From: Halomonas sp. THAF5a
GTDB lineage: Bacteria > Pseudomonadota > Gammaproteobacteria > Pseudomonadales > Halomonadaceae
Direction: 5' to 3'
Length of the DNA: 64,000 nt
Assembly (NCBI RefSeq): GCF_009363755.1
Contig: NZ_CP045417.1
Span: 868,001-932,000 of the forward strand
Under the pieces are notes generated by a model. That model ran no database searches, was not told the DNA's origin, and saw only the letters and a list, made by a program, of their open reading frames with translations. Below are positions 22,741 to 42,678 of this stretch, in pieces (position 1 is the first letter of the stretch; each line of letters begins with the position of its first letter). Both the position numbers and the translations under genes were made by a program.

Positions 22741-23562
22741 TCAGCGCCCGCCGGCGGCGGCGGGCTGGGCGGCGTCCGACAGCGCCTCGCGATTGATGGC
22801 GGCGATCTGCTCGGCGGCACGCTGCAGCGCCGGCAGGCACTCCATCGCCTTCTCCCGGGTCATGCGCATGATCGGCGACTGGATGGCCAGGCCGGTGTTG
22901 GAGAGCCCGTCGGGATTGGGGGCCAGCACCGCGATGCACAAGAGCCCCGGCAGGAACTCCTCGTCGTCGAAGGCGTAGCCCTGGCGCCCCACGGTCTCGA
23001 TCTCGGCCTCGAGGGCCTCGGGATCCACCAGGGTGTTGCGGGTGAAGCCCTCCAGCGTCAGGTCGTTGAGCAGCCGCCGACGCTGGGCGGGCGCCATCTG
23101 GGCCAGGAAGAGCTTGCCGCTGGCCGAGCAGTGCACCGGCACCCGGGACCCGGGATGCAGGTAGAAGCGCAGCGGCGCCGAGGTCTCCACGCGATCGAGA
23201 TAGAGCACCTCGCCGCCGGAGAGCGCCGTGATGTTGCAGCTCTCGCCGACCTCGTCGACCAGCTTGCGCAGGACCGCATGGCGGGCTCCGTGCACGGTGT
23301 CGTTGAGCAGCAGGGACTCGGCCAGGCGGCGCAGGCGGCTACCCTTGCTGTAGTGGCGGCCGTCGGCCTCGCGTTGCAGCATGCCCGAGGTCTCGAGCTG
23401 CTGGAGCATGCGGTGCAGGGTGGGCTTGGGCAGGCCGGTCTCGTCGACCATGCCCTGCAGCGTGAAGAACTGGTCCTTCCCTGCGATCACCTCGAGCAGG
23501 GCCAGGAGGCGTTGGGCCGGCGTATCGCCCTCGAGGCGAGGCATCTCGGATTTGGTCGTCAT
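22741..23562 (-). CDS. IclR family regulator, likely controlling xsc
   Basis: The 273-residue protein has an N-terminal winged helix (FTLQGMVDETGLPKPTLHRMLQQL) and the IclR effector domain with CNITALSGGEVLYLDRVE, HCSASGKLFLA and a C-terminal DDEEFLPGLLCIAVLA segment. It is divergent from xsc copy 1 and 97 bases upstream of the aminotransferase gene, so autoregulation and control of xsc-pta are likely. The palindrome at 23672-23692, and its counterpart at the second xsc, are its best candidate sites. The effector might be sulfoacetaldehyde or taurine (inference). Confidence 0.9.
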   Translation of the reverse strand: MTTKSEMPRLEGDTPAQRLLALLEVIAGKDQFFTLQGMVDETGLPKPTLHRMLQQLETSGMLQREADGRHYSKGSRLRRLAESLLLNDTVHGARHAVLRKLVDEVGESCNITALSGGEVLYLDRVETSAPLRFYLHPGSRVPVHCSASGKLFLAQMAPAQRRRLLNDLTLEGFTRNTLVDPEALEAEIETVGRQGYAFDDEEFLPGLLCIAVLAPNPDGLSNTGLAIQSPIMRMTREKAMECLPALQRAAEQIAAINREALSDAAQPAAAGGR

Positions 23563-23612: not shown

Positions 23613-23636
23613 TTTGTACCGTTTTATGGAATTTTG

Positions 23637-23692: not shown

Positions 23693-23792
23693 TTGGTATC
23701 AAAAAAGTGGTATCAAAAGAGCAAAGGCACCACACAATAACGCGATGGCGCCCACGCCAGATCCGACACCCAGCGCTCCCATGGAGGTTCCC

Positions 23793-25613
23793 ATGAGCAC
23801 CGACAACACCGCAGACACCCGCCAGGTCGTGAAAGGCAAGCAGAAGATGACCCCCTCGGAAGCCTTCGTGGAGACCCTGGTCGCCAACGGGGTGACCGAC
23901 ATGTTCGGCATCATGGGCTCGGCCTTCATGGACGCCATGGACATCTTCGCCCCGGCCGGCATCCGCCTGGTCCCGGTGGTCCACGAGCAGGGCGCCGCGC
24001 ACATGGCCGACGGCTATGCTCGCGTCTCCGGCCGCCACGGCGCCGTGATCGGCCAGAACGGCCCCGGCATCTCCAACTGCGTGACCGGCATCGCCGCGGC
24101 CTACTGGGCGCACAGCCCGGTGGTCATCGTGACCCCCGAGACCGGCACCACCGGCATCGGCCTGGGCGGCTTCCAGGAGTGCCACCAGCTGCCGATGTTC
24201 CAGGAGTTCACCAAGTACCAGGGCCACGTGACCCACCCGGCGCGCATGGCCGAGTACACCGGTCGCTGCTTCGACCGCGCCATGTCCGAGATGGGCCCGA
24301 CCCAGCTCAACATCCCGCGCGACTACTTCTACGGCGAGATCGAGTGCGAGATTCCCGAGCCGGCGCGCCTCGACCGCGGCCCGGGCGGTACCAAGACCCT
24401 CAACGAGGCTGCCGAGCTGCTGGCCAACGCCAAGTTCCCGGTGATCGTCTCCGGCGGCGGCGTGGTGATGGCCGATGGCGTCGAGGCCTGTAAGGCACTG
24501 GCCGAGCGTCTGGGCGCGCCGGTGGTCAACAGCTACCAGCACAACGACTCCTTCCCGGCCAGCCACCCGCTGTGGTGCGGTCCGCTGGGCTATCAGGGCT
24601 CCAAGGCCGGCATGAAGCTGATCAGTCAGGCCGACGTGGTGGTGGCACTGGGCACCCGCCTGGGGCCGTTCGGCACCCTGCCGCAGCACGGCATGGACTA
24701 CTGGCCGAAGGACGCCAAGATCATCCAGATCGACGCCGACCACAAGATGCTGGGCCTGGTGAAGAAGATCGCCGTGGGCATCTGCGGCGATGCCAAGGAA
24801 GCCGCCGAGGCGATCACCGAGCGCCTGTCCAGCCGCGACCTGGCCTGCGACGCCACCAAGAGCGAGCGTGCCGAGCAGATCGCCAGCGAGAAGGCCGCCT
24901 GGGAGCGCGAGCTCGACGAGTGGACCCACGAGAAGGACCCGTTCAGCCTCGACGCCATCGACGAGGCCAAGGGCGAGACGCCGTTCTCCGGCGGCGAGTA
25001 CCTGCACCCGCGCCAGGTGCTGCGCGAGCTCGAGAAGGCCATGCCGGACGACGTGATGGTCTCCACCGACATCGGCAACATCAACGCCGTGGCGCACAGC
25101 TACCTGCGCTTCGAGAAGCCGCGCAGCTTCTTCGCCCCGATGAGCTTCGGCAACTGCGGCTACGCGCTGCCGACCATCATGGGCGCCAAGGTGGCCGCAC
25201 CGGAGCGTCCGGCGATCGCCTACGCCGGTGACGGCGCCTGGGGCATGAGCCTGATGGAGATCATGACCGCGGTGCGTCACGAGATCCCGGTGACCGCGGT
25301 GGTGTTCCACAACCGTCAGTGGGGCGCCGAGAAGAAGAACCAGGTCGAGTTCTACAACCGTCGCTTCGTGGCCGGTGAGCTGGACAACCAGAGCTTCGCC
25401 GAGATCGGCCGGGCGATGGGTGCCGAGGGCATCACCGTGGACCGCCTGGAGGACGTGGGTCCGGCGCTGAAGAAGGCGGTGGACATGCAGATGAACGAGG
25501 GCAAGACCTGCGTCATCGAGGTCATGTGCACCCGGGAGCTGGGCGACCCCTTCCGCCGCGACGCGCTGAAGAAGCCGGTGCGCCTGCTCGAGAAGTACCA
25601 GGACTACGTCTGA
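23793..25613 (+). CDS. xsc: Sulfoacetaldehyde acetyltransferase, copy 1
   Basis: Thiamine-diphosphate enzyme that turns sulfoacetaldehyde and phosphate into acetyl phosphate and sulfite, the key desulfonation step of C2 sulfonates. The 606-residue protein has the catalytic Glu65 in VVHEQGAAH and the cofactor motif starting GDGAWGMSLMEI near residue 479 and ending in the Asn of VVFHNRQWG. I start at 23793, where GGAGG lies five bases upstream, rather than at in-frame upstream ATGs. It is followed by a good terminator and pta. Its sequence is almost identical to the copy at 37393: I noticed protein differences only at residues 4-7 and at 357 (Ser here, Ala there). Confidence 0.96.
   Translation: MSTDNTADTRQVVKGKQKMTPSEAFVETLVANGVTDMFGIMGSAFMDAMDIFAPAGIRLVPVVHEQGAAHMADGYARVSGRHGAVIGQNGPGISNCVTGIAAAYWAHSPVVIVTPETGTTGIGLGGFQECHQLPMFQEFTKYQGHVTHPARMAEYTGRCFDRAMSEMGPTQLNIPRDYFYGEIECEIPEPARLDRGPGGTKTLNEAAELLANAKFPVIVSGGGVVMADGVEACKALAERLGAPVVNSYQHNDSFPASHPLWCGPLGYQGSKAGMKLISQADVVVALGTRLGPFGTLPQHGMDYWPKDAKIIQIDADHKMLGLVKKIAVGICGDAKEAAEAITERLSSRDLACDATKSERAEQIASEKAAWERELDEWTHEKDPFSLDAIDEAKGETPFSGGEYLHPRQVLRELEKAMPDDVMVSTDIGNINAVAHSYLRFEKPRSFFAPMSFGNCGYALPTIMGAKVAAPERPAIAYAGDGAWGMSLMEIMTAVRHEIPVTAVVFHNRQWGAEKKNQVEFYNRRFVAGELDNQSFAEIGRAMGAEGITVDRLEDVGPALKKAVDMQMNEGKTCVIEVMCTRELGDPFRRDALKKPVRLLEKYQDYV
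23793..25613 (+). repeat. Near-identical 1.8-kb direct repeat, unit 1
   Basis: This xsc coding sequence matches the one at 37393-39213 with only about ten base differences noticed by eye, most of them silent, in the same orientation and exactly 13,600 bases apart. The promoter region and terminator are related too, but more diverged. Such long homology could support recombination deleting the intervening DNA, or gene conversion that keeps the copies alike. Confidence 0.9.
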
Positions 25614-25705: not shown

Positions 25706-26722
25706 ATGAAAGCCTTGAATCAGATTCTCGAGCGCGCACGCCGCGATCCCCGGCGCATCGTGCTCTGTGAGGGTGAGGACGAGCGCATCCTGCACGCGGC
25801 CGCCAAGGCGGCGGAGCAGGGCATCGCCAAGGTCCTCCTGGTGGGCAGCCGGGCAAGCATTGCCGCGGCCGCCGAGCGCCACGGGGTCGACCTGGCCGCG
25901 GTCGAGGTGATCGACCCGGCCGACTCGCCGCTGACCGACGAGCTGGAGCGGGCGCTGCTGGCCCTGCGCGAGAAGAAGGGCATGACCCCGGAGCAGGCCG
26001 CGACGGCGATCCGTGAGCCGCTCTGCTTCGCCAACATGTTGGTCCGCGAGGGGCACGCCGACGGCACCGTGGCCGGCGCGGTGAACACCACCGCCGACGT
26101 GGTGAGAAGCGCCATTCAGCTGCTGGGGCTGGCCCCGGGCAGCAAGCTGGTCTCGAGCTTCTTTCTGATGATGCTCTGCAAGCCGTTCCATAGCCTCAAG
26201 GGCGGCATGATCTTCTCCGACTGCGGCCTGGTCATCGAACCCGACGCGGGCGAGCTCGCCCAGATCGCCATGGCCGCCGCCGACAGCGCCCAGGCGCTGC
26301 TCGACGAAGACCCCCGGGTGGCCATGCTGTCGTTCTCGACCAGCGGCAGCGCCCGGCACGGCAACGTCGACAAGGTCGTGCAGGCCGCCCGCGAGGTGAA
26401 GGCCGCCCGGCCGGCGCTCGCCATCGACGAGGACGTGCAGCTCGATGCCGCCATCGTGGCCGAGATCGCCGAGCGCAAGCTGCCCGACTCCAGGGTCAAG
26501 GGCAACGCCAACGTGCTGATCTTCCCGGACCTCGAGGCCGGTAACATCGGCTACAAGCTGGCCGAAAGGATCGGCGGTGCCGAGGCCATCGGCCCGCTGC
26601 TGCAGGGCCTGGCCAAGCCGGCCAACGACCTCTCCCGGGGCTGCAGCGTCGACGACGTCTTTCATGTGATCGCGGTGACCACGGTGCAGGCCCAGAGCCT
26701 GTCCGCCGCCGCCGAGTCGTGA
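25706..26722 (+). CDS. pta: Phosphate acetyltransferase
   Basis: Single-domain phosphotransacetylase of 338 residues that converts acetyl phosphate and CoA to acetyl-CoA. Family features include DGTVAGAVNTTADVVRSAI, the KGGMIFSDCG segment and the C-terminal SRGCSVDDV. It is the short form, lacking the DRTGG-type N-terminal domain of enterobacterial Pta, and this short form is the one usually paired with xsc. It lies 92 bases after xsc, and GAGAGG precedes its ATG. Its role is to funnel the Xsc product into central metabolism. Confidence 0.93.
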   Translation: MKALNQILERARRDPRRIVLCEGEDERILHAAAKAAEQGIAKVLLVGSRASIAAAAERHGVDLAAVEVIDPADSPLTDELERALLALREKKGMTPEQAATAIREPLCFANMLVREGHADGTVAGAVNTTADVVRSAIQLLGLAPGSKLVSSFFLMMLCKPFHSLKGGMIFSDCGLVIEPDAGELAQIAMAAADSAQALLDEDPRVAMLSFSTSGSARHGNVDKVVQAAREVKAARPALAIDEDVQLDAAIVAEIAERKLPDSRVKGNANVLIFPDLEAGNIGYKLAERIGGAEAIGPLLQGLAKPANDLSRGCSVDDVFHVIAVTTVQAQSLSAAAES

Positions 26723-31259: not shown

Positions 31260-32006
31260 ATGAATCACCGCATCCTGCCCGGAGGTCAGCGCTACACCGA
31301 CACCCCGCTGGGCGTGCTTTGCCTGGAGTCCTGGTTTGCCAAGCCGCTCGGCCACCTGCGCCATCCCCGCAGCTTCGACTACCCGGTGGTCTACGAGGTC
31401 ATGGAAGGGGTCGACATTCCGGGGCTGTTGCACCATCCCGGCGATGAACTGCTGGAGCTGCTGATCGATCGTGCCCGTTTCCTCGAGGAGGGCGGTGTCC
31501 GGGTCGTCTCCGGAAGCTGCGGCTTCATGGCTCGCTATCAGCGGCAGGTCGCCGAGGCGGTCTCCGTGCCCGTCGTGCTGTCGAGCCTGACCCTCCTGCC
31601 CTGGCTCGAGATCGTGCATGGCCCGTCGGCCCGACTGGGCGTCCTGACCGCGGATGCCGACGCCCTCGGGGAGGCTCACCTGCGCGGCGCCGGGCGTGCC
31701 TCGGGGACCGACGGCCTCGGCATCGAGGGGCTGCAAGCGGCGCCCGAATTCCGTGAGGTCATCCTGGAGGGACGACGCCATGATCTCGACATGGCGCTCA
31801 TCGCCGAGGAGGTGGCCGCGGCCACGCGTCGCCTGATGGCGCGAGGCCCCCTCGAGGCCATCGTGCTGGAGTGCACCGACCTCTCCGCCTTCGCGGACGT
31901 GGTCAGGGAGGTCTCGGGCCTGCCGGTGTATGACATCGTGCAGGCGATCGACCTGGTGGTCGCGGGCCAGCCCAGTCCCTCGACCCGTCGGGAGTGCCGC
32001 CCATGA
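31260..32006 (+). CDS. Asp/Glu/hydantoin racemase-like protein
   Basis: The 248-residue protein has the two-cysteine arrangement of cofactor-independent racemases: one Cys in VSGSCGFM and one in VLECTDLS, each at the end of a beta strand in a duplicated Rossmann-like fold. The ATG at 31260 has AGAAGGA nine bases upstream; 17 extra in-frame residues upstream lack one. The stop overlaps the next start (ATGA). Together with the DadA-like oxidase it suggests catabolism of one enantiomer of an amino acid: racemisation, then oxidation. It could also be a maleate- or hydantoin-type relative. Confidence 0.8.
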   Translation: MNHRILPGGQRYTDTPLGVLCLESWFAKPLGHLRHPRSFDYPVVYEVMEGVDIPGLLHHPGDELLELLIDRARFLEEGGVRVVSGSCGFMARYQRQVAEAVSVPVVLSSLTLLPWLEIVHGPSARLGVLTADADALGEAHLRGAGRASGTDGLGIEGLQAAPEFREVILEGRRHDLDMALIAEEVAAATRRLMARGPLEAIVLECTDLSAFADVVREVSGLPVYDIVQAIDLVVAGQPSPSTRRECRP

Positions 32007-33250
32007 CCAGCGTTGCCGTGATCGGCGCGGGGATCGTCGGGCTCGCCGTCAGCCATGCCCTGCGCGCGCGAGGGCACGAGGTCAGGCTCGTGGATCCCGA
32101 GCCGCCGGGGGAGGGCACCTCCTTCGGCAACGCCGGCCTGATCGCCAACTACGCCACGGCGCCCATGGCCAGCCCCGAGACCCTTCGCCAGCTGCCGGCC
32201 ATGCTGGCCCGGTCCGACCGTTCCATCGGCATCGATCCGGGCTACACGCCGGCCCTCGCCGGCTTCGGCTGGCGGTTCCTGCGTGCCGCGAGGCCGGCAC
32301 GCTTCGCTCGTCACAAGGCCGACCTGGTGCAGCTGATCGATCGGGCGATCACGGGCCAGCATGCGCTGCTCGATGCGCTCGGGGGCGAGCGGCTCTATCG
32401 GGCCGCCGGCTGTCTGCAGGTCTTCCGTGACGCGCCCTGTTCGCCGTCGGCCCTGGACGCCATGGCCGCGGCCAAGCGCGCTGACGGCGTGGCCTGCGAG
32501 GCGCTCGGTCCGGCGGACGTGCTGGGGCTGGAGCCCGAGCTGAGTGCCGAAGGGCTCGGCGGCGCCCTCTACTTCCCCGAGACCCGTTCGCTGCGCGACC
32601 CGCTGAACTTCAGCCGGTGCCTGCATCGGGCCCTGGAGGGCGAGGGCTTCACCCATGTGTCCGCTCGCGTCGAGGCGCTCACGCCGCTCGCCACGGGAGG
32701 CTGGCGGCTGCAGGCCGGCGAGACCCGCCTGGAGGTGGAGCGGGTGGTCCTCTGTGCGGGCATCGCCAACAACGATCTGCTCCGGTCGCTGGGCATGCGC
32801 CTGCCGGTGGTCAGCGAGCGCGGTTACCACGTGATGCTGGAGACGCCGCTGGCCCTCAACCGGCCGGTCGGCTGGCTGACCCACCATTTCTATGCCACGC
32901 CGATGCAGGAGGGGATACGGCTGGCCGGGACCACCGAGTTCTGCCCGCCTGGCAAGGCGCCGAACGGACGCCGCTGGTCGCGGCTCGCCGACTGGGGCAC
33001 GACGCTGTTCGGCCGCCCGGTCGAGGTGGCCAAGGAGTGGGTGGGGGTTCGGCACTCGACGCCGGATGGCCTGCCGGTGATCGGCGAGGTGCCGGGGCAG
33101 CCGGGGCTGATGCTGGCCTTCGGGCATGGGCATCTGGGGCTCACGCTGTCGGCCGAGACGGGACGTCTGGTGGCCGGCCTGGTCGATGGCGAGGCACTGC
33201 CCGAAGACGCCCAGGCACTCTCGCCACAGCGCTTCCTGAACGCGTCCTGA
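32003..33250 (+). CDS. DadA-like FAD-dependent D-amino-acid dehydrogenase
   Basis: The 415-residue protein has an N-terminal dinucleotide-binding motif (AVIGAGIVGLAVSHAL), the FGNAGLIANYA segment characteristic of the DadA branch of DAO oxidoreductases, and a C-terminal GHGHLGLTLSAETGRLVA FAD loop. It oxidises a D-amino acid to the 2-oxo acid, passing electrons to the respiratory chain. The ATG overlaps the racemase stop, so the two are coupled; a GTG nine bases upstream is a less likely start. It is the last gene of the LysR-controlled operon. Confidence 0.87.
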   Translation: MTSVAVIGAGIVGLAVSHALRARGHEVRLVDPEPPGEGTSFGNAGLIANYATAPMASPETLRQLPAMLARSDRSIGIDPGYTPALAGFGWRFLRAARPARFARHKADLVQLIDRAITGQHALLDALGGERLYRAAGCLQVFRDAPCSPSALDAMAAAKRADGVACEALGPADVLGLEPELSAEGLGGALYFPETRSLRDPLNFSRCLHRALEGEGFTHVSARVEALTPLATGGWRLQAGETRLEVERVVLCAGIANNDLLRSLGMRLPVVSERGYHVMLETPLALNRPVGWLTHHFYATPMQEGIRLAGTTEFCPPGKAPNGRRWSRLADWGTTLFGRPVEVAKEWVGVRHSTPDGLPVIGEVPGQPGLMLAFGHGHLGLTLSAETGRLVAGLVDGEALPEDAQALSPQRFLNAS

Positions 33251-33298: not shown

Positions 33299-33673
33299 TC
33301 AGCGGTCGTGGTCGCAGAGCCGCCAGACGCCCTCCTCGAGGGGCAGCAGGGCGGCGATGGCGGCGGTGGCGACCACGTGGGTGGTCTCCTGCACGGGGTC
33401 GTGGACGTTGAGCCCGCCGTGCACCACGCGCACCTCGGCGCGGCCCCGGGGCAGCTCGGCCGCCACCACCTCTGTGTCGACCCGGTCGGGGGCCTGCACG
33501 CCGATGGTCACCTGGACCCGCATCTCGCGATGGTCGATGCCCAGCGACTTGAACAGCACGATGGAGGAGTGGTGCAGGGCATCGTGCACGGCGCGGCAGG
33601 CCGCCTTGGTGTAGTCCTCGCCGTAGAGGTCGTTGCCGGTGCCCATTTCCAGGATGATGCGTCGCTCAGTCAT
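33299..33673 (-). CDS. Lin0512 family protein, second copy
   Basis: A 124-residue protein of the Lin0512 family, conserved and of unknown function. Family marks are ILEMGTGNDLYGEDYTKAACRAVHDALHHSS and the C-terminal VVATAAIAALLP. It overlaps the preceding paralogue by eight bases (ATGACTGA), so it is strongly coupled. The two copies share the MG-T--Y-tkAA-rAi-DAL-h pattern but little else, suggesting they form a heteromer or specialised subunits. It is the last gene of the cobST operon. Confidence 0.82.
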   Translation of the reverse strand: MTERRIILEMGTGNDLYGEDYTKAACRAVHDALHHSSIVLFKSLGIDHREMRVQVTIGVQAPDRVDTEVVAAELPRGRAEVRVVHGGLNVHDPVQETTHVVATAAIAALLPLEEGVWRLCDHDR

Positions 33674-34019
33674 GATCGGGCTCCATGTCGAAGGAGACGA
33701 CGATGGCGGCGTTGGCGATCACGCTGGTGCCGCTGCCGTCGGGTTTGTCCACGTCCAGCCCGCCCTTGACCAGGCGCACCGTCGGCTGCCCGTAGGGGAA
33801 GATGCGAAGCAGGGCCGCCGGGTCGACGGCGGCGGGGTCCTGCACCCCGATCTCCACGTCGATCAGCATGGCCTCCTTGGGGAAGCCGAAGGCGTCGGCG
33901 ACGTTGAGCGAGTTGTGCCACAGGGCATCGCGGATCGCCCGGGCGGCGGCCTCGGTATAGTTGCGGCTGCGGATCGAGGTGCCCATGCCGAACTGGGTCA
34001 CCATGCGGGTCTTGGCCAT
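33666..34019 (-). CDS. Lin0512 family protein, first copy
   Basis: A 117-residue member of the Lin0512 family with QFGMGTSIRSRNYTEAAARAIRDALWHNSL and IDVEIGVQDP, ending with VIANAAIVVSFDMEPDHD. The conserved Gly-Thr, Tyr and Asp-Ala-Leu pattern is shared with its neighbour. The gene starts 15 bases after the cupin stop. The family has no assigned activity; the close operon with AAA+/VWA proteins suggests a role around maturation of some enzyme. Confidence 0.82.
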   Translation of the reverse strand: MAKTRMVTQFGMGTSIRSRNYTEAAARAIRDALWHNSLNVADAFGFPKEAMLIDVEIGVQDPAAVDPAALLRIFPYGQPTVRLVKGGLDVDKPDGSGTSVIANAAIVVSFDMEPDHD

Positions 34020-34034
34020 GCGCTCTCTCCGTCG

Positions 34035-34403
34035 TCAGTCGCTGTCGTGGTGGCGGATCACGAAGTGCTTGGTGGTCGTCTCGATCACTTCCCAGTAGCC
34101 GCGGAAACCGTCGGGAATCAGGAAGGCGTCGCCGGTGCGGTAGGTCTGGGCGCTGCCGTCCTCGGCGATCAGCCGCACGTGGCCTTCGAGGATGTAGCAG
34201 AACTCGTCGCGACCGGTGAAGGCGTGCCACTTGCCGGGGGTGCTGGTCCAGGTGCCGGCGATCAGTCGGCCGTCGGGGCTCTGAAAGTTCAGCGTGGCGT
34301 CGTGGTGCGGGTCGCCCTCGACCACGCGGTCCGGCAGGTCGGCCAGGCGCCGGTGGGTTTGCGTCTCGGGATCATGGCCGATGTCGATGACCTTGACGGG
34401 CAT
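34035..34403 (-). CDS. Small cupin protein (Cupin_3 type)
   Basis: A 122-residue single-domain cupin. The first motif appears as GTWTSTPGKWHAFTGRDEFCYILEG and the second as DAFLIPDGFRGYWEVIE. This is the Cupin_3 type, also seen in EutQ and ureidoglycine hydrolase relatives, where several metal ligands are replaced: the second motif here has no His. It may be a binding protein rather than an oxygenase. It lies 31 bases after cobT and 15 bases before the Lin0512 pair. Confidence 0.85.
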   Translation of the reverse strand: MPVKVIDIGHDPETQTHRRLADLPDRVVEGDPHHDATLNFQSPDGRLIAGTWTSTPGKWHAFTGRDEFCYILEGHVRLIAEDGSAQTYRTGDAFLIPDGFRGYWEVIETTTKHFVIRHHDSD

Positions 34404-34436
34404 GGGGCTCTCCTCTGGAAGATCGGGCGTCGAGGA

Positions 34437-36167
34437 TCAGCGCCGGTGGCGGCCGCCGATCAGCTCGACGATCTCGTCGAACAGGTGGGTATCCAGCGCC
34501 TGGGCCATGTCGGTGGCCAGGCAGCGGCGGTAGAAGGGGCTCAGGTCCAGGCCCACGCCGAGGCCGAGCACCTCCACCTGGCCCTCGCGGGTGCGCCGGG
34601 CGACGACCTCCTTGAGGTGGTTGTCCAGGTAGTAGGGATCGTTGGCCAGGTTGGTGGCGCTGTCCGCCGGGCAGCCGTCGGAGATCACGATCAGGATGCG
34701 GCGCTTCTCGGGGCGGGCGAGCAGGCGCTCGCAGGCCCAGTCCACCGCCTCGCCGTCGATCCCCTCGCGGAACAGGTCGGGCTTGAGCAGCGCGGCGATG
34801 TCGGTGCGCGCGCGTCGCCAGCTGCGCTCGGCATCCTTGAACACCATGTGGCACACCTCGTTGAGGCGGCCCGGGCCACGGGGGCGGCCGCCGCTCATCC
34901 AGGCCTTGTAGGCGCGGCCGCCGTTCCAGGCGCCGGTGGTGAAGCCGAGCAGCTCGGTGCTCGCCCCGATCATCTCCAGGGCGCGGATCAGGCTCTCGGC
35001 CATCAGGGTCACCGGCACGATGTGGTGCTTCATCGAGCCGGAGCAGTCGATCAGCAGGCTGACGGCGCAGTCGGTGCCGAGCTTCACCTGGTCGCGATAG
35101 AAGAGGCGGCGCTCGGTGGGCGAGCTGACCAGCTGGGCGAGGCGCCGACCGTCGATGCGGCCCTCCTCCTCGCCGAAGGCGCGGCCGTCGACGCGCGGCT
35201 CCCAGAGCACGCTGCCCAGCCGACGGGCCAGGCGCGGCAGGTTGATGGCCTGCTCGGCGGTGGCCTGGTCGAGCGTCTCGCGGTACTCGCGCAGCAGGGC
35301 GCGGCGCACCAGGCTGCCCGCTGCGACCTCGCGGTCGAAGCGGGTGGTGAAGACCCGATAGGCCAGGGCGGCGTCCTCGAAGGTCTTGCTGTGCCCGGTG
35401 GTGGCGGCGGCGACCCCGTCCTCGTCGCCCTCGCCATCCTCGAGGTCGAGCAGCAGGGCGAAGGCGTCGCTGGGCGCCTCTTCCGGCTCCTCGTCGTCGT
35501 TCTCGCCGGCCTGTTCCCGCTCGTCGCGAACGCGTTTGCCGACGATCCGGGCGATGGCCAGGGCGTGCTCGGCGTAGGCCGCCTGGTCGTGGCGCTGGCG
35601 GCGCAGGCCGTAGAGCGCCGTGCCGAGCGCGCGCACCAGGGAGGCGCGGGTGCCCTCGATGTAGTCCTCGGTCTCCTCGAGCACCGGTTTGGCATTCAGC
35701 CGCGACCAGCACATCTGGGCCACGGTGTAGAGCAGCAGGCCGATGCTGCCCTCGGTGAGCCCGGAGCGGTAGAAGGCCCGCGACCAGTTCTCGAAGCGCT
35801 GCACCAGGTTGTCGGCCATGCCGGGCATGTCGTCGGGGACACGCGTCTCCACGCGCAGCTGCTCGAGCAGCTCGAAGACCAGTCGCTCGACCGGATCCTC
35901 CGGGCGGTGCGCGTGGTGCAGGGCCGGATCGGAGTGCAGCAGGCGCAGGGCCATGCCGTCGGCGGCGGCCCGGCAGTCGGCGAAGTCATCCTGGGCGGGA
36001 TCGACGCGCAGGTGTGGCGCCAGGGTCGACAGGCGCGATTCGCCCCGGTAGAGGCGCCGGCCGCGGTAGTGCAGGTCGGCCTCGCCGGTCAGGGCGCGCA
36101 GGCTGGCCGCGCACAGCTCCTCGATCCGCTGTTGGCGGCGCGCCTGCTGCTGGGCGCTCAGGGTCAT
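34437..36167 (-). CDS. cobT: CobT-like VWA-domain protein
   Basis: The 576-residue protein resembles CobT of the aerobic cobaltochelatase CobNST. The C-terminal half is a von Willebrand A domain with the metal motif DCSGSM at residues 374-379 and a later VISDGCPAD; a Glu/Asp-rich stretch (about 218-250) lies in the middle, shorter than in classical CobT. The ATG at 36167 overlaps the cobS stop by four bases. No CobN subunit and no other cobalamin gene is in the window, so either CobN is elsewhere or this pair serves another metalloenzyme or client. The reading frame runs open into the cobS region but that is a shadow. Confidence 0.85.
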
Positions 36168-37144
36168 GAGGCACTCGCCTCCTTCATCCAGGATTCGTCG
36201 AGTTCCTCGCCGAAGCAGCGCTGGTAGTATTCGGCGACCAGCGGCCGCTCGGCCTCGTCGCACTTGTTGAGGAAGGAGAGCCGGAAGGCCAGGGCCGGAT
36301 TGCGGAAGATCTCGCAGTTCTCGGCCCAGGTGATCACCGTGCGCGGCGACATCAGGGTCGAGAGGTCGCCGGCGGCGAAGCCCTGGCGCGTCAGGTTGGC
36401 CACCGCCACCATCGAGGCGATCAGCTCGCGGCCCTTCTCGGTGTCCTTGCTGGGCACTCGGCCGAGCACGATGGCCGCCTCCTCCTCGCGGGGCAGGTAG
36501 TCGAGCTTGGCGACGATGTTCCAGCGGTCCATCTGGGCGTGGTTGAGCACCTGGGTGCCCTGGTAGAGCCCGGACAGGTTGCCCAGCCCCACCGTGTTGG
36601 CGGTGGCGAACAGCCGGAAGTAGGGGTGCGGGTGGATGACCCGGTTCTGGTCGAGCAGCGTGAAGTGGCCATCGCGCTCGAGGATGCGCTGGATGACGAA
36701 CATCACGTCCGGGCGGCCAGCGTCGTACTCGTCGAAGATCAGCGCCACCGGGCGCTGCAGCGACCAGGGCACGATGCCTTCCTGGAACTCGGTGACCTGC
36801 ACCCCGTCGCGGATCACGATGGCGTCCTTGCCCACCAGGTCGAGGCGGCTGATATGGCCGTCCAGGTTGACCCTCATGCAGGGCCAGTTGAGGCGTGCCG
36901 CCACCTGTTCGATATGGGTCGACTTGCCGGTACCGTGCAGCCCCTGAACCATCACCCGGCGGTTGCGGGTGAAGCCGGCGAGGATCGCCAGGGTCACGTC
37001 GGGGTTGAAGCGATAGGCCTCGTCGACCTCGGGCACGTACTCGTCGCGCCAGCTGAAGGCCGGGACCTCGAGATCGCTGTCGATGCCGAAGAGGTCGCGC
37101 ACCGACACCTGGATGTCGGGCTGGGCATTCATGGGGTCTGTCAT
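36164..37144 (-). CDS. cobS: CobS-like AAA+ ATPase (MoxR type)
   Basis: A 326-residue AAA+ protein very like alphaproteobacterial CobS: N-terminal [16 protein letters not shown], Walker [10 protein letters not shown] (68-76), Walker [11 protein letters not shown] (134-143), and sensor region [12 protein letters not shown]. CobS and CobT form a chaperone-like ring that powers cobalt insertion by CobN. I chose the ATG at 37144, which has GGAG six bases before it. It leads a five-gene operon, divergent from xsc copy 2 across about 250 bases. The shared control region suggests a link with sulfonate metabolism rather than only cobalamin synthesis. Confidence 0.87.
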
Positions 37145-37263: not shown

Positions 37264-37289
37264 ATTGTATCGTTTTATGGAATTTGTCC

Positions 37290-37392: not shown

Positions 37393-39213
37393 ATGAGCAC
37401 CCAAGACACCACAGATACCCGCCAGGTCGTGAAAGGCAAGCAGAAGATGACCCCCTCGGAAGCCTTCGTGGAGACCCTGGTCGCCAACGGGGTGACCGAC
37501 ATGTTCGGCATCATGGGCTCGGCCTTCATGGACGCCATGGACATCTTCGCCCCGGCCGGCATCCGCCTGGTCCCGGTGGTCCACGAGCAGGGCGCCGCGC
37601 ACATGGCCGACGGCTATGCTCGCGTCTCCGGCCGCCACGGCGCCGTGATCGGCCAGAACGGCCCCGGCATCTCCAACTGCGTGACCGGCATCGCCGCGGC
37701 CTACTGGGCGCACAGCCCGGTGGTCATCGTGACCCCCGAGACCGGCACCACCGGCATCGGCCTGGGCGGCTTCCAGGAGTGCCACCAGCTGCCGATGTTC
37801 CAGGAGTTCACCAAGTACCAGGGCCACGTGACCCACCCGGCGCGCATGGCCGAGTACACCGGTCGCTGCTTCGACCGCGCCATGTCCGAGATGGGCCCGA
37901 CCCAGCTCAACATCCCGCGCGACTACTTCTACGGCGAGATCGAGTGCGAGATTCCCGAGCCGGCGCGCCTCGACCGCGGCCCGGGCGGTACCAAGACCCT
38001 CAACGAGGCTGCCGAGCTGCTGGCCAACGCCAAGTTCCCGGTGATCGTCTCCGGCGGCGGCGTGGTGATGGCCGACGGCGTCGAGGCCTGTAAGGCGCTG
38101 GCCGAGCGTCTGGGCGCGCCGGTGGTCAACAGCTACCAGCACAACGACTCCTTCCCGGCCAGCCACCCGCTGTGGTGCGGTCCGCTGGGCTACCAGGGCT
38201 CCAAGGCCGGCATGAAGCTGATCAGTCAGGCCGACGTGGTGGTGGCACTGGGCACCCGCCTGGGGCCGTTCGGCACCCTGCCGCAGCACGGCATGGACTA
38301 CTGGCCGAAGGACGCCAAGATCATCCAGATCGACGCCGACCACAAGATGCTGGGCCTGGTGAAGAAGATCGCCGTGGGCATCTGCGGCGACGCCAAGGAA
38401 GCCGCCGAGGCGATCACCGAGCGCCTGTCCAGCCGCGACCTGGCCTGCGACGCCACCAAGGCCGAGCGCGCCGAGCAGATCGCCAGCGAGAAGGCCGCCT
38501 GGGAGCGCGAGCTCGACGAGTGGACCCACGAGAAGGACCCGTTCAGCCTCGACGCCATCGACGAGGCCAAGGGCGAGACGCCGTTCTCCGGCGGCGAGTA
38601 CCTGCACCCGCGCCAGGTGCTGCGCGAGCTCGAGAAGGCCATGCCGGACGACGTGATGGTCTCCACCGACATCGGCAACATCAACGCCGTGGCGCACAGC
38701 TACCTGCGCTTCGAGAAGCCGCGCAGCTTCTTCGCCCCGATGAGCTTCGGCAACTGCGGCTACGCGCTGCCGACCATCATGGGCGCCAAGGTGGCCGCAC
38801 CGGAGCGTCCGGCGATCGCCTACGCCGGTGACGGCGCCTGGGGCATGAGCCTGATGGAGATCATGACCGCGGTGCGTCACGAGATCCCGGTGACCGCGGT
38901 GGTGTTCCACAACCGCCAGTGGGGCGCCGAGAAGAAGAACCAGGTCGAGTTCTACAACCGTCGCTTCGTGGCCGGTGAGCTGGACAACCAGAGCTTCGCC
39001 GAGATCGGCCGGGCGATGGGTGCCGAGGGCATCACCGTGGACCGCCTGGAGGACGTGGGTCCGGCGCTGAAGAAGGCGGTGGACATGCAGATGAACGAGG
39101 GCAAGACCTGCGTCATCGAGGTCATGTGCACCCGCGAGCTTGGCGACCCCTTCCGCCGCGACGCGCTGAAGAAGCCGGTGCGCCTGCTCGAGAAGTACCA
39201 GGACTACGTCTGA
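37393..39213 (+). CDS. xsc: Sulfoacetaldehyde acetyltransferase, copy 2
   Basis: Second 606-residue Xsc, with the same thiamine-diphosphate motifs and catalytic Glu65 as copy 1. It differs at residues 4-7 (QDTT rather than DNTA) and at 357 (Ala rather than Ser). GGAGG lies before the ATG. This copy sits beside the taurine dehydrogenase genes, from which an insertion sequence now separates it, so it is probably the taurine-pathway copy, while copy 1 is linked with pta and exporters. Confidence 0.96.
   Translation: MSTQDTTDTRQVVKGKQKMTPSEAFVETLVANGVTDMFGIMGSAFMDAMDIFAPAGIRLVPVVHEQGAAHMADGYARVSGRHGAVIGQNGPGISNCVTGIAAAYWAHSPVVIVTPETGTTGIGLGGFQECHQLPMFQEFTKYQGHVTHPARMAEYTGRCFDRAMSEMGPTQLNIPRDYFYGEIECEIPEPARLDRGPGGTKTLNEAAELLANAKFPVIVSGGGVVMADGVEACKALAERLGAPVVNSYQHNDSFPASHPLWCGPLGYQGSKAGMKLISQADVVVALGTRLGPFGTLPQHGMDYWPKDAKIIQIDADHKMLGLVKKIAVGICGDAKEAAEAITERLSSRDLACDATKAERAEQIASEKAAWERELDEWTHEKDPFSLDAIDEAKGETPFSGGEYLHPRQVLRELEKAMPDDVMVSTDIGNINAVAHSYLRFEKPRSFFAPMSFGNCGYALPTIMGAKVAAPERPAIAYAGDGAWGMSLMEIMTAVRHEIPVTAVVFHNRQWGAEKKNQVEFYNRRFVAGELDNQSFAEIGRAMGAEGITVDRLEDVGPALKKAVDMQMNEGKTCVIEVMCTRELGDPFRRDALKKPVRLLEKYQDYV
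37393..39213 (+). repeat. Near-identical 1.8-kb direct repeat, unit 2
   Basis: Counterpart of the repeat at 23793-25613, same orientation, offset 13,600 bases. The terminator stem after it is also conserved, so the duplicated unit includes regulatory region, gene and terminator. Confidence 0.9.
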
Positions 39214-39274: not shown

Positions 39275-40602
39275 GGTTCTTCGCAGATCAGCGTGAAACA
39301 GGCAGGGCTTGAGGCGAGGGCTGGATAGAGAAACGGCGGTGAATCCGAGTAAGCTGATATTCGCCAAAACGTCAGCCTACGGACACCGCCGTTGCCATGG
39401 ATGCTACCCCGCTCAGCCTGTTCTGGAAAGGGTTCACTGTCGCCCACCACGAGTTCCTGGATCCTCAGACGCTACGGCTCCAGTTGGAGCCCGATGACCT
39501 GACCCCGCCTGTCTGCAGCGGCTGTGACCACGCCTGTTGCCTGGTCCATGACGTGCATCGCCGGCGCGTCCGCGAGGCGCCGCTGCTGATCTACCGAGTG
39601 GAGCTGGATGTCCCGGTGCGGCGCCTGCGCTGCCCGACCTGTGGTCCGACACGAGAGCGCATCGACTGGCTACCCGGGCGCTCGCCGGTCACCACCACAC
39701 TGCGCCAGTGGGTGGAGCGCCTGGTCACGTTGCTGCCGATCCGGCATGTCGCGGATCTGGTCGGCTTGCACTGGCATACCGTCAAGACCATCGACAAGCA
39801 GCGCCTGCAACGCGACCTGCCGGCACCGGATCCGACACGCTTGCGGCGGCTGATGATGGACGAGTTTGCCCTGCACAAGGGACACCGCTACGCCACCGTG
39901 GTCGCCTGCGCCGACACTCAGCAGGTGGTATGGATCGGCGAAGGCCGCTCCCGCGAGTCGATCCGCCCCTTCTTCGCGTGGCTGGGCGAGGCACGAGAGC
40001 TGATCGAGGCCGTGGCCATGGACATGAACTCGGCCTTCGATTGTGAGGTGAAGGACCAGTGCCCCAACGCCGAGGTGGTCTACGACCGCTTCCACGTGGT
40101 GGCCAAGTACGGGCGCGAAGTGATGGATCGGGTACGCGTCGATCAGGCTAACCAGCTGCGCGACGACAAGGCGGCCCGCAAGGTGATCAAGGGCAGTCGT
40201 TGGCTGCTGCTGCGCAACGCCGACAATCTCAAGCCCGAGCAGGCGGTGAAGCTGGAGGAGCTGCTGGCGGCCAATGCGTCACTGACCACGGCGTACCTGC
40301 TCAAGGATCAGCTCAAGACCCTGTGGTTTGCCGACGACGAAGCCACCGCCCGAAACGCCTGGCAGGAGTGGCATGCCATGGCGACCAGCAGTGGCATCGA
40401 GGCCTTGGAACGTTTCGCCAAGCGGTTGGTCCCGTACCTCGAAGGGATCCTGTCCAGCGCCCGGCACCGGCTGAACACCAGCGTGCTGGAGGGCATGAAC
40501 AACCGGATCAAGGTCATCAAGCGGATGGCCTACGGGTATCGCGACACGGCGTACTTCTTCCTGAAGATCCGTGCCGCATTTCCCGGCAAAGTGCGATGAA
40601 CC
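39275..40602 (+). mobile_element. Intact ISL3-family insertion sequence (1328 bp)
   Basis: Ends are 24-base imperfect inverted repeats beginning GGTTCTTCGCA on the left and GGTTCATCGCA on the right (17 of 24 match). Eight T residues at 39267-39274 and 40603-40610 form an exact 8-base target duplication, the length typical of ISL3. One transposase gene fills the element. The intact ends and perfect duplication indicate a recent insertion. It separates xsc from tauX. Confidence 0.9.
39397..40599 (+). CDS. ISL3-family transposase
   Basis: A 400-residue DDE transposase. The N terminus has the zinc-finger pattern CSGCDHACC...CPTCG (about residues 41-88), followed by a helix-turn-helix (VADLVGLHWHTVKTIDK) and the DDE core: MMDEFALHKG for the first Asp, VYDRFHVV for the second, and LEGMNNRIKVIKRMAYGYRD with the final Glu. 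Nothing is truncated and the stop codon lies in the right inverted repeat, so it is probably active. Confidence 0.93.
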   Translation: MDATPLSLFWKGFTVAHHEFLDPQTLRLQLEPDDLTPPVCSGCDHACCLVHDVHRRRVREAPLLIYRVELDVPVRRLRCPTCGPTRERIDWLPGRSPVTTTLRQWVERLVTLLPIRHVADLVGLHWHTVKTIDKQRLQRDLPAPDPTRLRRLMMDEFALHKGHRYATVVACADTQQVVWIGEGRSRESIRPFFAWLGEARELIEAVAMDMNSAFDCEVKDQCPNAEVVYDRFHVVAKYGREVMDRVRVDQANQLRDDKAARKVIKGSRWLLLRNADNLKPEQAVKLEELLAANASLTTAYLLKDQLKTLWFADDEATARNAWQEWHAMATSSGIEALERFAKRLVPYLEGILSSARHRLNTSVLEGMNNRIKVIKRMAYGYRDTAYFFLKIRAAFPGKVR

Positions 40603-40805: not shown

Positions 40806-41189
40806 ATGAGCCAACCGACTACCGCACTCCTCGAAGCCTTCAGCGACGCCCTGAACCGTCACGACATCGATGCCGTCATGAGCATGATGACCGACGACTG
40901 CGTCTTCCACGCCATCGCCGGCCCGGAGCTGCAGGGCAAGAGCTTTGTCGGCCAGGCCGAGGTCCGCCAGGGCCTCGAGAACGCCTGGAAGACCGCCCCC
41001 GACGCCAGCTGGACCGATGCCGAGCACCACGTGATCGGCGACAAGGGCTTCACCGAGTCCACCTACCAGGGCACCACCACCGATGGCGTGCGCTCCGAGG
41101 CGCGCATGATCGATGCCTTCACCTTCCGCGACGGCAAGATCGCCGTGAAGAACGCCTTCCGCAAGAACCGTCCCCCGGTCAACGCCTGA
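40806..41189 (+). CDS. tauX: Taurine dehydrogenase small subunit (NTF2-like)
   Basis: The 127-residue protein has an NTF2/SnoaL-like fold (ALLEAFSDALNRHDIDAVMSMMTDDCVFHAI at the start, MIDAFTFRDGKIAVKNAF at the end), as does TauX of the Paracoccus and Rhodobacter taurine dehydrogenase. It lies 46 bases before tauY and about 200 bases after an insertion sequence that now separates it from xsc; the 195 bases between hold no gene. Its role is as partner of TauY in oxidative deamination of taurine to sulfoacetaldehyde and ammonium. Confidence 0.82.
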   Translation: MSQPTTALLEAFSDALNRHDIDAVMSMMTDDCVFHAIAGPELQGKSFVGQAEVRQGLENAWKTAPDASWTDAEHHVIGDKGFTESTYQGTTTDGVRSEARMIDAFTFRDGKIAVKNAFRKNRPPVNA

Positions 41190-41235: not shown

Positions 41236-42678
41236 ATGGAGACAACAATGCCAAGAAGCAGGGCGGAGACCGAGGCGACCAGTACCTCACCCTCCCAGCC
41301 ATATGATCCGGCCTATGACCCCCTGAAGAGCACCACCCCGGGGGCGGGTCGTGACTATGCGCCGACCTACTGGATCGGCACCGCCGGCGAGCCGCCGGCC
41401 GATGACGGGCCCATCACCCAGGACACGGACGCCGATGTGGTCATCATCGGCTCCGGCTTCACGGGGCTGACGGCGGCGATCTTCCTGGCCCAGGAGTACG
41501 GCATCAAGGCCACGGTGCTCGAGGCCAACCGCGCCAGCTGGGGCTGCTCGACCCGTAACGGCGGCCAGGCCCAGTGTGCCTCCGGGCGCCTCAAGCGCTC
41601 CCAGTGGATCCAGCGCTATGGCCTGGACACCGCCCTGAAGCTGCATCGCGAGTGCCTCGACGGCATGGCGACCTTCAAGGAGCTGATCAAGGACATCGAC
41701 TGCGATCCCCAGCCCGGCGGCCATCTCTATGTGGCCCATCGCGACAAGGTGATGCCGACCCTCGAGAAGGAAGCGAAGCTGCTGCGCGAGACCTTCGACT
41801 ACGACGCGCGGATCCTCGATGCCGACACGGTGAAGCGTGACTGGATCGGCGATCAGGAGGCGGCCGGCGCCATGCACGAGCCGGAGGGCATCGGCATCCA
41901 CGCCGGCAAGCTGGCCTTCGGCTACCACCGCAAGGCTCGCGCGCTGGGCGTGAAGATTCACCCGGCGAGCCCGGTGCAGGGCTTCGAGACCCGCGGCGGC
42001 GTGCACTACCTCAAGACCCCGGGTGGGGTGGTCAAGGCACGGGCGGTGGGCATCGCCACCGGCGGCTACACCTCCCAGAGCCTGCATCGCGAGCTCAAGA
42101 ACCGCCTGCTGCCGATCCTCTCGAACTCCATCGTCACCCGGCCGCTGACCGACGACGAGATCGAGGCCTGCAGCCTGCGTACGCGCCAGGTGATCACCGA
42201 TACCCGGATCCTGCGCCACTACTACCGCCTGCTGCCGGACAACCGACTGCAGATCGGCAGCCGCAGCGCCATCACCGGCCGCGATGCGCCGCAGAAGAAG
42301 TACGAGTCGATGCTGATCGGCGATATGCACCGCAAGTTCCCGACGCTCAAGGGGGTCGACATCGACTACTCCTGGTGGGGCTGGGTGGACGTCAGTCACG
42401 ACATGATGCCGCGCATCCATCAGCCCGATGCCAAGGAGACGGTCTACTACGCCCTGGGCTACGGCGGCAACGGCGTGATGTACTCGGCCCAGGCCGGTAA
42501 GCGCCTGGCGCAGTGGATCGCCGGGCACGGCCAGGAGCTGGACCTGCCGATCTTCACCTCCCGGCTGCCGTTCCCCAACCTGCGCGAGAAGGTCGAGTCC
42601 GAGGCGTTCGCCCCCTTCCGGCGCTTCGGCCAGCGCTTCCTCTACCGCTGGTACCACCTGAAGGACGAGGTGATCTAG
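41236..42678 (+). CDS. tauY: Taurine dehydrogenase large subunit (FAD, DAO family)
   Basis: FAD-dependent oxidoreductase, 480 residues, that with TauX oxidises taurine and passes electrons to the respiratory chain, probably via cytochrome c. The dinucleotide motif VVIIGSGFTGLTAAIFLAQ lies about 70 residues in, after a Pro-rich N-terminal extension; further marks are SWGCSTRNGGQAQCASG and the C-terminal GYGGNGVMYSAQAGKRLA. AGGAG lies eight bases before the ATG at 41236. A terminator follows, and the regulator tauR converges from the other side. Confidence 0.87.
   Translation: METTMPRSRAETEATSTSPSQPYDPAYDPLKSTTPGAGRDYAPTYWIGTAGEPPADDGPITQDTDADVVIIGSGFTGLTAAIFLAQEYGIKATVLEANRASWGCSTRNGGQAQCASGRLKRSQWIQRYGLDTALKLHRECLDGMATFKELIKDIDCDPQPGGHLYVAHRDKVMPTLEKEAKLLRETFDYDARILDADTVKRDWIGDQEAAGAMHEPEGIGIHAGKLAFGYHRKARALGVKIHPASPVQGFETRGGVHYLKTPGGVVKARAVGIATGGYTSQSLHRELKNRLLPILSNSIVTRPLTDDEIEACSLRTRQVITDTRILRHYYRLLPDNRLQIGSRSAITGRDAPQKKYESMLIGDMHRKFPTLKGVDIDYSWWGWVDVSHDMMPRIHQPDAKETVYYALGYGGNGVMYSAQAGKRLAQWIAGHGQELDLPIFTSRLPFPNLREKVESEAFAPFRRFGQRFLYRWYHLKDEVI

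Follow-up and report, generated by a model that had tools for sequence, protein, structure and literature searches.

We analyzed a 64,000-nt window of the genome of Halomonas sp. THAF5a (NZ_CP045417.1; 3.81 Mb, single contig, completeness score of 100%) in which genes for a CobS-like AAA+ ATPase and a CobT-like von Willebrand factor A (VWA) protein diverge from xsc, the gene for sulfoacetaldehyde acetyltransferase. CobST is known for helping the insertion of cobalt into vitamin B12, and Xsc, a thiamine diphosphate (ThDP) enzyme, frees sulfite from taurine and from related sulfonates. Our comparison of genomes indicates that this CobS-CobT pair is probably a dedicated AAA+/VWA remodeling motor, or Xsc activase, for one clade of Xsc (hereafter the high clade). 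The pair belongs to the cobaltochelatase family, retains intact ATPase and metal ion-dependent adhesion site (MIDAS) motifs, occurs here without CobN, and falls in separate clades; it co-occurs with Xsc, is linked to it, and shares an operator with it. We infer from this pattern that Xsc is the physical client of CobST.

A CobS-CobT operon in a genome without CobN

The initial annotation described a five-gene operon of CobS, CobT, a Cupin_3 protein, and two Lin0512 paralogs, divergent from xsc copy 2, and both family matches and gene geometry agree with it. All five genes lie on the minus strand (Table 1). CobS and CobT overlap by 4 bp, gaps of 33 and 15 bp separate CobT from the cupin gene and the cupin gene from the first Lin0512 gene, and the two Lin0512 genes overlap by 8 bp. 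The gap between cobS and xsc copy 2 is 248 bp. TIGR03457 (cut-off of 676 bits) clearly identifies the product of xsc copy 2 as a sulfoacetaldehyde acetyltransferase, and the two xsc copies in the window are 99.3% identical in protein and 99.2% identical in DNA.

The aerobic cobaltochelatase domains CobS_N/AAA and CobT/CobT_C are present, and homology of this AAA+ plus VWA pair to CobS and CobT of CobNST (e.g., chains 9ujv and 9uka) spans most of each protein. It differs from CobNST in lacking CobN, in forming its own clade, in its MIDAS sequence (DCSGS), and in scoring below both NCBIfam equivalog cut-offs (558.55 bits for CobS, TIGR01650; 759.05 bits for CobT, TIGR01651). The absence of CobN from the neighborhood, already noted in the initial annotation, extends to the whole genome, in which a profile search for CobN (PF02514) returned zero matches; other cobalamin genes were not searched for. 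The operon accounts for every CobS (one), CobT (one), and Lin0512 (two) gene of the genome, and there is thus no separate cobN-cobS-cobT set. With neither CobN nor a second CobS or CobT, a role as a B12 chelatase is ruled out for this organism, and the scenario of a sole CobN lacking its own CobST does not apply to it.

Co-occurrence and linkage of CobST with one clade of Xsc

Scanning a species-genome collection with CobT gave 58 loci (L005-L062), or 59 with the window added. Carriers among the 58 include Halomonadaceae, Thauera/Aromatoleum/Azoarcus, Burkholderia/Trinickia, Polaromonas, Oligella, Cocleimonas, Amycolatopsis, Arthrobacter, and others. By our own gene calls and clustering, Xsc is present at 41 of the 59 loci, many of which are cut by contig ends. 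Among the 30 well-covered loci (at least 8.5 kb on both sides of CobT), Xsc is found at 28, TauY at 22, IclR at 22, Pta at 21, TauX at 21, Lin0512 at 17, and the cupin at 4. The two well-covered loci without Xsc belong to Cocleimonas, and both genomes hold high-clade Xsc elsewhere. CobST is found across taurine, isethionate, and sulfoacetate clusters.

When 40 of the 58 locus genomes were searched for Xsc, 30 were positive, 28 of them over the cut-off. Five of the ten misses (L006, L010, L013, L014, and L020) lie on contigs ending inside xsc; at L024 and L030, the contig ends close upstream of CobS and just past Pta; and L029, L054, and L056 have no such explanation. The Xsc count is a lower bound, because near-identical xsc copies break assemblies and contigs shorter than 3 kb are absent from the collection. 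Breaks of this kind within xsc affect the contigs of several relatives and hide the gene from genome searches. Named replicons of Photobacterium, Cupriavidus, Caballeronia, and Burkholderia arboris all carry high-clade Xsc by CobST. The Caballeronia stretch, the only annotated one of the four, lists an 'AAA family ATPase' and a 'cobalt chelatase' near xsc and pta.

Trees were built with FastTree from partly automatic gene calls, and their support is moderate. In the Xsc tree (n = 99), the high clade (support 0.93) takes in 61 sequences and leaves out 38. Only one of the 38 comes from a CobST locus (L041), which also has a high-clade Xsc beside CobS. Seven of the 61 lack CobST at the fetched locus; G672, G484, G265, and G047 are genomes of this kind that encode CobST elsewhere. 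Adding seven more Xsc brought the high clade to 68. The Xsc-linked proteins form a CobS clade of 75 sequences (support 0.84) and a CobT clade of 83 (support 0.90), and no listed reference sequence falls inside either. Walker A and Walker B are conserved in the CobS clade. In the CobT clade, the MIDAS motif DxSxS is present in 83/83 sequences, the threonine position holds Thr in 82 and Ser in 1, and the second aspartate is found in 78, with 4 gaps and 1 other residue. The motif reads DCSGS in 82 of the 83, compared with mostly DNSGS or DQSGS in the references.

In a sample of 151 Halomonadaceae genomes, Xsc (E ≤ 1e-150) was detected in 19 and CobS (E ≤ 1e-80) in 27. All 19 genomes with Xsc carry the Xsc-linked class of CobS. 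Nineteen CobS proteins score 515-538 bits, and a cut CobS of 404 bits in G374 also belongs to the Xsc-linked clade (L090). Clade CobS is carried by 20 genomes: all 19 with Xsc, and G489, in which the contig starts inside xsc (L088). The remaining seven CobS proteins (396-426 bits) come from genomes without Xsc, and the six that were fetched (L072-L077) form their own branch.

A second order, that of G224, was represented by 260 genomes, of which 30 had Xsc over the cut-off: 8 high (>1020 bits) and 22 other (<990 bits). Seven of the 8 high-Xsc genomes have a CobS of 457-530 bits, always on the same contig as Xsc (0.3-3 kb away, once 29 kb); the eighth, without clade CobS, is G656. Clade CobS is found in 0 of the 22 other-Xsc genomes and in 0 of the 230 genomes without Xsc. 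CobS proteins of 555-590 bits in G597 (low Xsc, on another contig) and G683 (no Xsc) fall outside the Xsc-linked clade. A sample of the class (369 genomes) yielded 21 with Xsc over the cut-off, 7 high and 14 other. Five of the 7 high-Xsc genomes have clade CobS, beside Xsc in G000, G224, and G143 and elsewhere in G265 and G047; the two without it, G042 and G183, belong to one genus. Canonical-type CobS (553-599 bits) is encoded on another contig in 7 of the 14 other-Xsc genomes, four of which lack CobN. Six of these seven proteins were placed in the tree, outside the clade, and the seventh was too short to be included. A role for canonical-type CobST in organisms with other Xsc is therefore conceivable.

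The genes are also arranged and apparently regulated together. Xsc and CobS are often divergent neighbors (14 of 28 within 500 bp), and the one-strand orders Xsc-Pta-CobS-CobT-Lin0512 and Xsc-CobS-CobT occur at L079 and L048, respectively. The promoter element that had been noticed upstream of both xsc copies proved to be one conserved block. Its 19-base core is found in the gap that separates cobS from xsc copy 2 and again, with a single mismatch, in the gap that separates iclR from xsc copy 1. Allowing up to 3 mismatches, this core has 22 matches in the 59 loci, none farther than 400 bp upstream of CobS, Xsc, IclR, or TauX. CobS accounts for 15 of the 22, and the mean over 30 shuffled cores was 0.2 matches. 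Six of the 15 CobS sites have no called Xsc beside them; in three of these (L006, L009, and L013), the contig is cut and retains a fragment of xsc, which leaves L012, L018, and L034. Since the core is unlike the TauR consensus CTGGACYTAA (PMC5320631), we propose, as a guess, that it is read by the IclR-type regulator.

Three further features were considered and set aside. A putative docking site in Xsc, a high-clade insert with two conserved glutamates (each in 66 of 68 sequences), was dropped because both Cocleimonas Xsc lack these glutamates despite the presence of CobST in their genomes. The C-terminal tail KYxDYV does not mark the high clade, as it is also found in some other Xsc. The correlation between Xsc and CobS tree distances (0.62 over 46 loci) was too low to be used.

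Collectively, there is a good probability that this branch of CobST is specialized and dedicated to one clade of Xsc, which would make it an AAA+/VWA system of the remodeling kind with a new kind of client. The initial annotation had suggested a maturation or repair system for an enzyme of sulfonate metabolism in which the Lin0512 proteins and the cupin serve as adaptors or client-specific parts. Comparative genomics supports the tie of this CobST to sulfonate metabolism and not to cobalamin, and the likely client can be narrowed to one Xsc clade. A need for the Lin0512 proteins and the cupin is not supported: the Lin0512 pair occurs at 35 of the 59 loci and the cupin at 8 (both counts include the window), and our gene calls found CobST without Lin0512 at seven further Halomonadaceae loci (L138, L139, L141, L144, L145, L150, and L151). 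We therefore reject both as necessary components and regard them as optional accessories.

Possible action of CobST on Xsc and alternative clients

Like MoxR-type AAA+/VWA pairs, CobST combines intact Walker A and Walker B motifs with a complete-MIDAS VWA partner encoded next to the ATPase, and it is predicted to work as such a pair does, by ATP-dependent remodeling of a client. According to passages of PMC4660213, the Rubisco activase CbbQO is likewise an AAA+ hexamer with a MIDAS-containing VWA adaptor, is encoded beside the enzyme that it frees of inhibitors, and has a VWA protein that binds an acidic residue of Rubisco through its MIDAS. CbbQO differs in that the similarity of CobS to CbbQ is weak (E of 1e-7 to 1e-8) and the proposed client is a ThDP enzyme, not Rubisco. 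Rubisco is not among the families identified at CobST loci, although not all neighbors were identified and Rubisco itself was not searched for. The client of NorQD, the nitric oxide reductase chaperone, is a metalloenzyme, a point of difference from Xsc, for which metal insertion is not indicated beyond Mg-ThDP. NorQD is also an AAA+/VWA pair with a MIDAS, and twisting of the client has been proposed, with the ring twisting the VWA partner (passages of PMC13036017).

By analogy, CobS would form an ATPase ring on which CobT sits, CobT would use the MIDAS of its VWA domain to grip Xsc, and movement powered by ATP would open the enzyme. As the sulfite that Xsc releases at its own ThDP would destroy the thiamine, the motor would eject the spent cofactor and let fresh ThDP-Mg enter, much as CbbQO clears Rubisco of inhibitors, and thiO, thiS-thiG, and thiC of some clusters would resupply the cofactor. 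Sulfite splits thiamine at its methylene bridge. Sulfites are described as degrading thiamine in foods in passages of PMC8362232, PMC9345363, and PMC5753639, the last of which puts thiamine loss with sulfites down to thiamine disulfide. That cofactor damage by the enzyme's own sulfite is the reason for the motor is quite possible, if short of probable. The full scheme of a cofactor-exchange machine, in which CobST ejects the wreck and recruited thi genes, most of them without a thiamine pyrophosphate (TPP) riboswitch, replace it, is put forward tentatively.

The thiamine genes were identified as follows. In Rhodocyclales, the gene flanked by TauX and Xsc encodes ThiG (L033; PF05690, E = 3.7e-108). 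At L026, a 67-residue neighbor of ThiG is ThiS and a 638-residue product is ThiC. The flavoprotein facing CobS at L018 (303.2 bits) and one near CobS at L139 (284.3 bits) are ThiO (cut-off of 250.8 bits). The remaining thi genes were called from their resemblance to these. On this basis, 23 of 76 CobST-Xsc loci have one or more of thiO, thiS, thiG, and thiC (16 of the 59, plus 7 of 17 further loci picked from genome searches, one of which, L143, contains just the Xsc of its genome). None of the four was found at 37 other-Xsc loci (470 kb, vs 1,294 kb of CobST-Xsc loci), at 21 other CobST loci, at 5 high-Xsc loci without local CobST, or in the four named replicons and three further Xsc loci. 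The thiO gene occurs in Halomonadaceae and thiS-thiG in Rhodocyclales, with thiC in addition in Thauera (L026). In Paenalcaligenes (L049), thiG lies on the xsc strand, 77 bp after xsc, and at L112 the thiG is weak and a thiO-like gene scores 170 bits, short of the cut-off.

An RNA-family scan of 19 of the 23 thi loci found a TPP riboswitch only before thiC of L015 and L035. These two may therefore be ordinary genes near by, and the other local thi copies appear, from the scan, to be free of TPP feedback. The window itself has none of thiO, thiS, thiG, and thiC and no riboswitch; its DAO gene at 32003-33250 has a ThiO score of 106.8, below the cut-off. In Actinobacteria, thiG has been listed as a target of TauR in a regulon study (PMC5320631), and 'xsc' and 'thiG' each appear once in a cat metagenome table (PMC5120286).

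CobST may instead act on Xsc for Mg2+/ThDP loading, for assembly, or for relief of another inhibitor or dead-end adduct, which we consider possible. All of the linkage evidence fits this equally, and related systems offer precedents, as NorQD inserts metal (PMC13036017) and CbbQO removes inhibitors (PMC4660213). The recruited thi genes point to consumption of the cofactor, although they are present at only 23 of 76 loci.

It is improbable that the client is the taurine dehydrogenase TauXY, even though its genes are often beside CobS, with TauX at 21 and TauY at 22 of the 30 well-covered loci, divergent TauX-CobS neighbors at several loci (L138 and L063), and the operator core also upstream of tauX at L033. 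Xsc occurs without TauX and TauY at six of the 30 loci, whereas the reverse, TauX or TauY without Xsc, is seen at none, and the Cocleimonas Xsc clusters with a GMC (isethionate-dehydrogenase-like) gene and no TauXY. G606 combines TauXY and an other-clade Xsc with no CobS at E ≤ 1e-80, and G656 has TauY and high Xsc without CobST, although TauXY was not searched for genome-wide. A further enzyme of the pathway, such as Pta or a sulfite-oxidizing molybdenum enzyme, is hardly a likelier client. CoxDE does mature CO dehydrogenase, Pta is found at 21 of the 30 loci, the order in G047 is CobT-CobS-Pta with Xsc on another contig, and the window encodes a molybdopterin oxidoreductase; yet 7 of the 30 loci have Xsc without Pta, and the molybdenum enzyme family (f15) is present at only 10 of the 59 loci and also at the other-Xsc loci L104 and L133. 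These observations disfavor all three as clients. Passive hitch-hiking on a moving sulfonate cassette, or service to a CobN elsewhere in a cobalamin role, is very unlikely: the cassette does reach Amycolatopsis and Arthrobacter, and five of the 19 Halomonadaceae genomes that carry both Xsc and CobST (and G489) have CobN over the cut-off, but the other 14 have no CobN over the cut-off (G380 has a weak match below it), which largely refutes the cobalamin role, the ATPase and MIDAS residues are conserved across the clade, and several genomes have kept both CobST and high Xsc although the two are no longer adjacent (two Cocleimonas, G265, G047, and, at 29 kb, G672).

Several observations count against a dedicated motor for Xsc and against its thiamine-based explanation. 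The strongest are that most other-Xsc genomes make sulfite without a motor or local thi genes (in the order of G224, 21 of 22 have no CobS at all at E ≤ 1e-80 even though sulfite is a product of their Xsc as well) and that CobST is missing from three genomes with high Xsc (G656, G042, and G183), which have no CobS above the MoxR-like background. Canonical-type CobS in half of the other-Xsc genomes of the class sample means that the division is not simply one of motor or no motor. Carriers within one family are kin, so that the p values overstate. No Xsc column separates CobST-linked from unlinked high-clade enzymes, five being treated as unlinked. The window and 53 of the 76 loci lack thi genes, which are clustered in a few lineages.

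Among the literature matches listed for a CobST-Xsc link, one genome-annotation paper matched both names and no other was listed with both, which does not prove that such a link is absent from print.

Other features of the locus and CobST pairs outside the clade

Names for the SnoaL_2 and DAO genes of the window (Table 1) are presumed from gene position. An ISL3-family transposase gene (39397-40599) is inserted between xsc copy 2 and this probable tauXY pair. At 44391-47312, the window encodes a protein with 4Fe-4S and molybdopterin oxidoreductase domains, a candidate sulfite-oxidizing enzyme. In the translation of the cupin, read by eye, the customary His/Glu motif is only partly kept.

Table 1. 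Positions in the window of the genes and operator sites discussed
Feature	Position	Strand	Evidence
cobS-like AAA+ ATPase	36164..37144	-	Start at 37144 or 37132; CobS_N + AAA_5; TIGR01650, 533.8 bits
cobT-like VWA protein	34437..36167	-	CobT + CobT_C; TIGR01651, 286.8 bits; MIDAS DCSGS
Cupin_3 (EutQ-like) protein, optional part	34035..34403	-	PF05899, 80.2 bits
Lin0512 paralog A, optional part	33666..34019	-	PF09585, 109.1 bits (cut-off 23.4)
Lin0512 paralog B, optional part	33299..33673	-	PF09585, 117.2 bits (cut-off 23.4); resembles solved chain 3c8l_A
Operator core between cobS and xsc copy 2	37265..37283	+	Block conserved between both xsc upstream regions
xsc copy 2, proposed client	37393..39213	+	TIGR03457, 1062.1 bits
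xsc copy 1	23781..25613	+	Genome match, 1060.6 bits
Operator core between iclR and xsc copy 1	23614..23632	+	1 mismatch
IclR-type regulator (BhcR/PcaR-like)	22741..23562	-	Family match
pta, phosphotransacetylase	25706..26722	+	Family match
SnoaL_2 protein, probable tauX	40806..41189	+	PF12680; name inferred from place
DAO-family oxidoreductase, probable tauY	41248..42678	+	PF01266; name inferred from place

Both small Lin0512 proteins match PF09585; the family (PF09585, TIGR02058) has a solved member, 3c8l, labeled an FtsZ-like protein of unknown function. Here they form a diverged tandem pair downstream of CobT, whereas the members on two Azospirillum plasmids (L163 and L164) stand alone in unrelated contexts, which gave no functional lead. 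No mention of Lin0512 by name was found in the literature searched. Small proteins encoded after Lin0512 at L079:10413-10826 (137 residues) and L026:12526-12906 (126 residues) have no Pfam match. In Caballeronia, a GTP-binding protein and an amidohydrolase are encoded after CobT on the opposite strand (L167:12616-15233); COG523 and COG1574 proteins are mentioned in TauR regulons (PMC5320631).

CobST without CobN is a wider phenomenon than the link to Xsc. CobS proteins at or near the canonical score occur without a CobN match in G017, G214, G093, G190, G265, G120, and G354, and the control Caulobacter vibrioides was matched by the CobS search and not by the CobN search. The other CobS-CobT pair of six Halomonadaceae genomes (L072-L077), outside the Xsc-linked clade, neighbors an asparagine-synthase-like protein and an NTP_transf_5 nucleotidyltransferase, with an ABC transporter at several of the loci. 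These families were read only at L075, which also has an O-antigen ligase. Two of these six genomes, G437 and G493, have no CobN.

Genes of the Xsc-linked clade are liable to be given vitamin B12 names, and one record labels its CobT a 'cobalt chelatase,' a name contradicted by the genomes without CobN. The thiamine genes suggest a testable chemical reason for the motor, namely an enzyme whose product attacks its own cofactor. If this is true, CobST would amount to AAA+-driven repair of an enzyme whose product poisons the vitamin it depends on.

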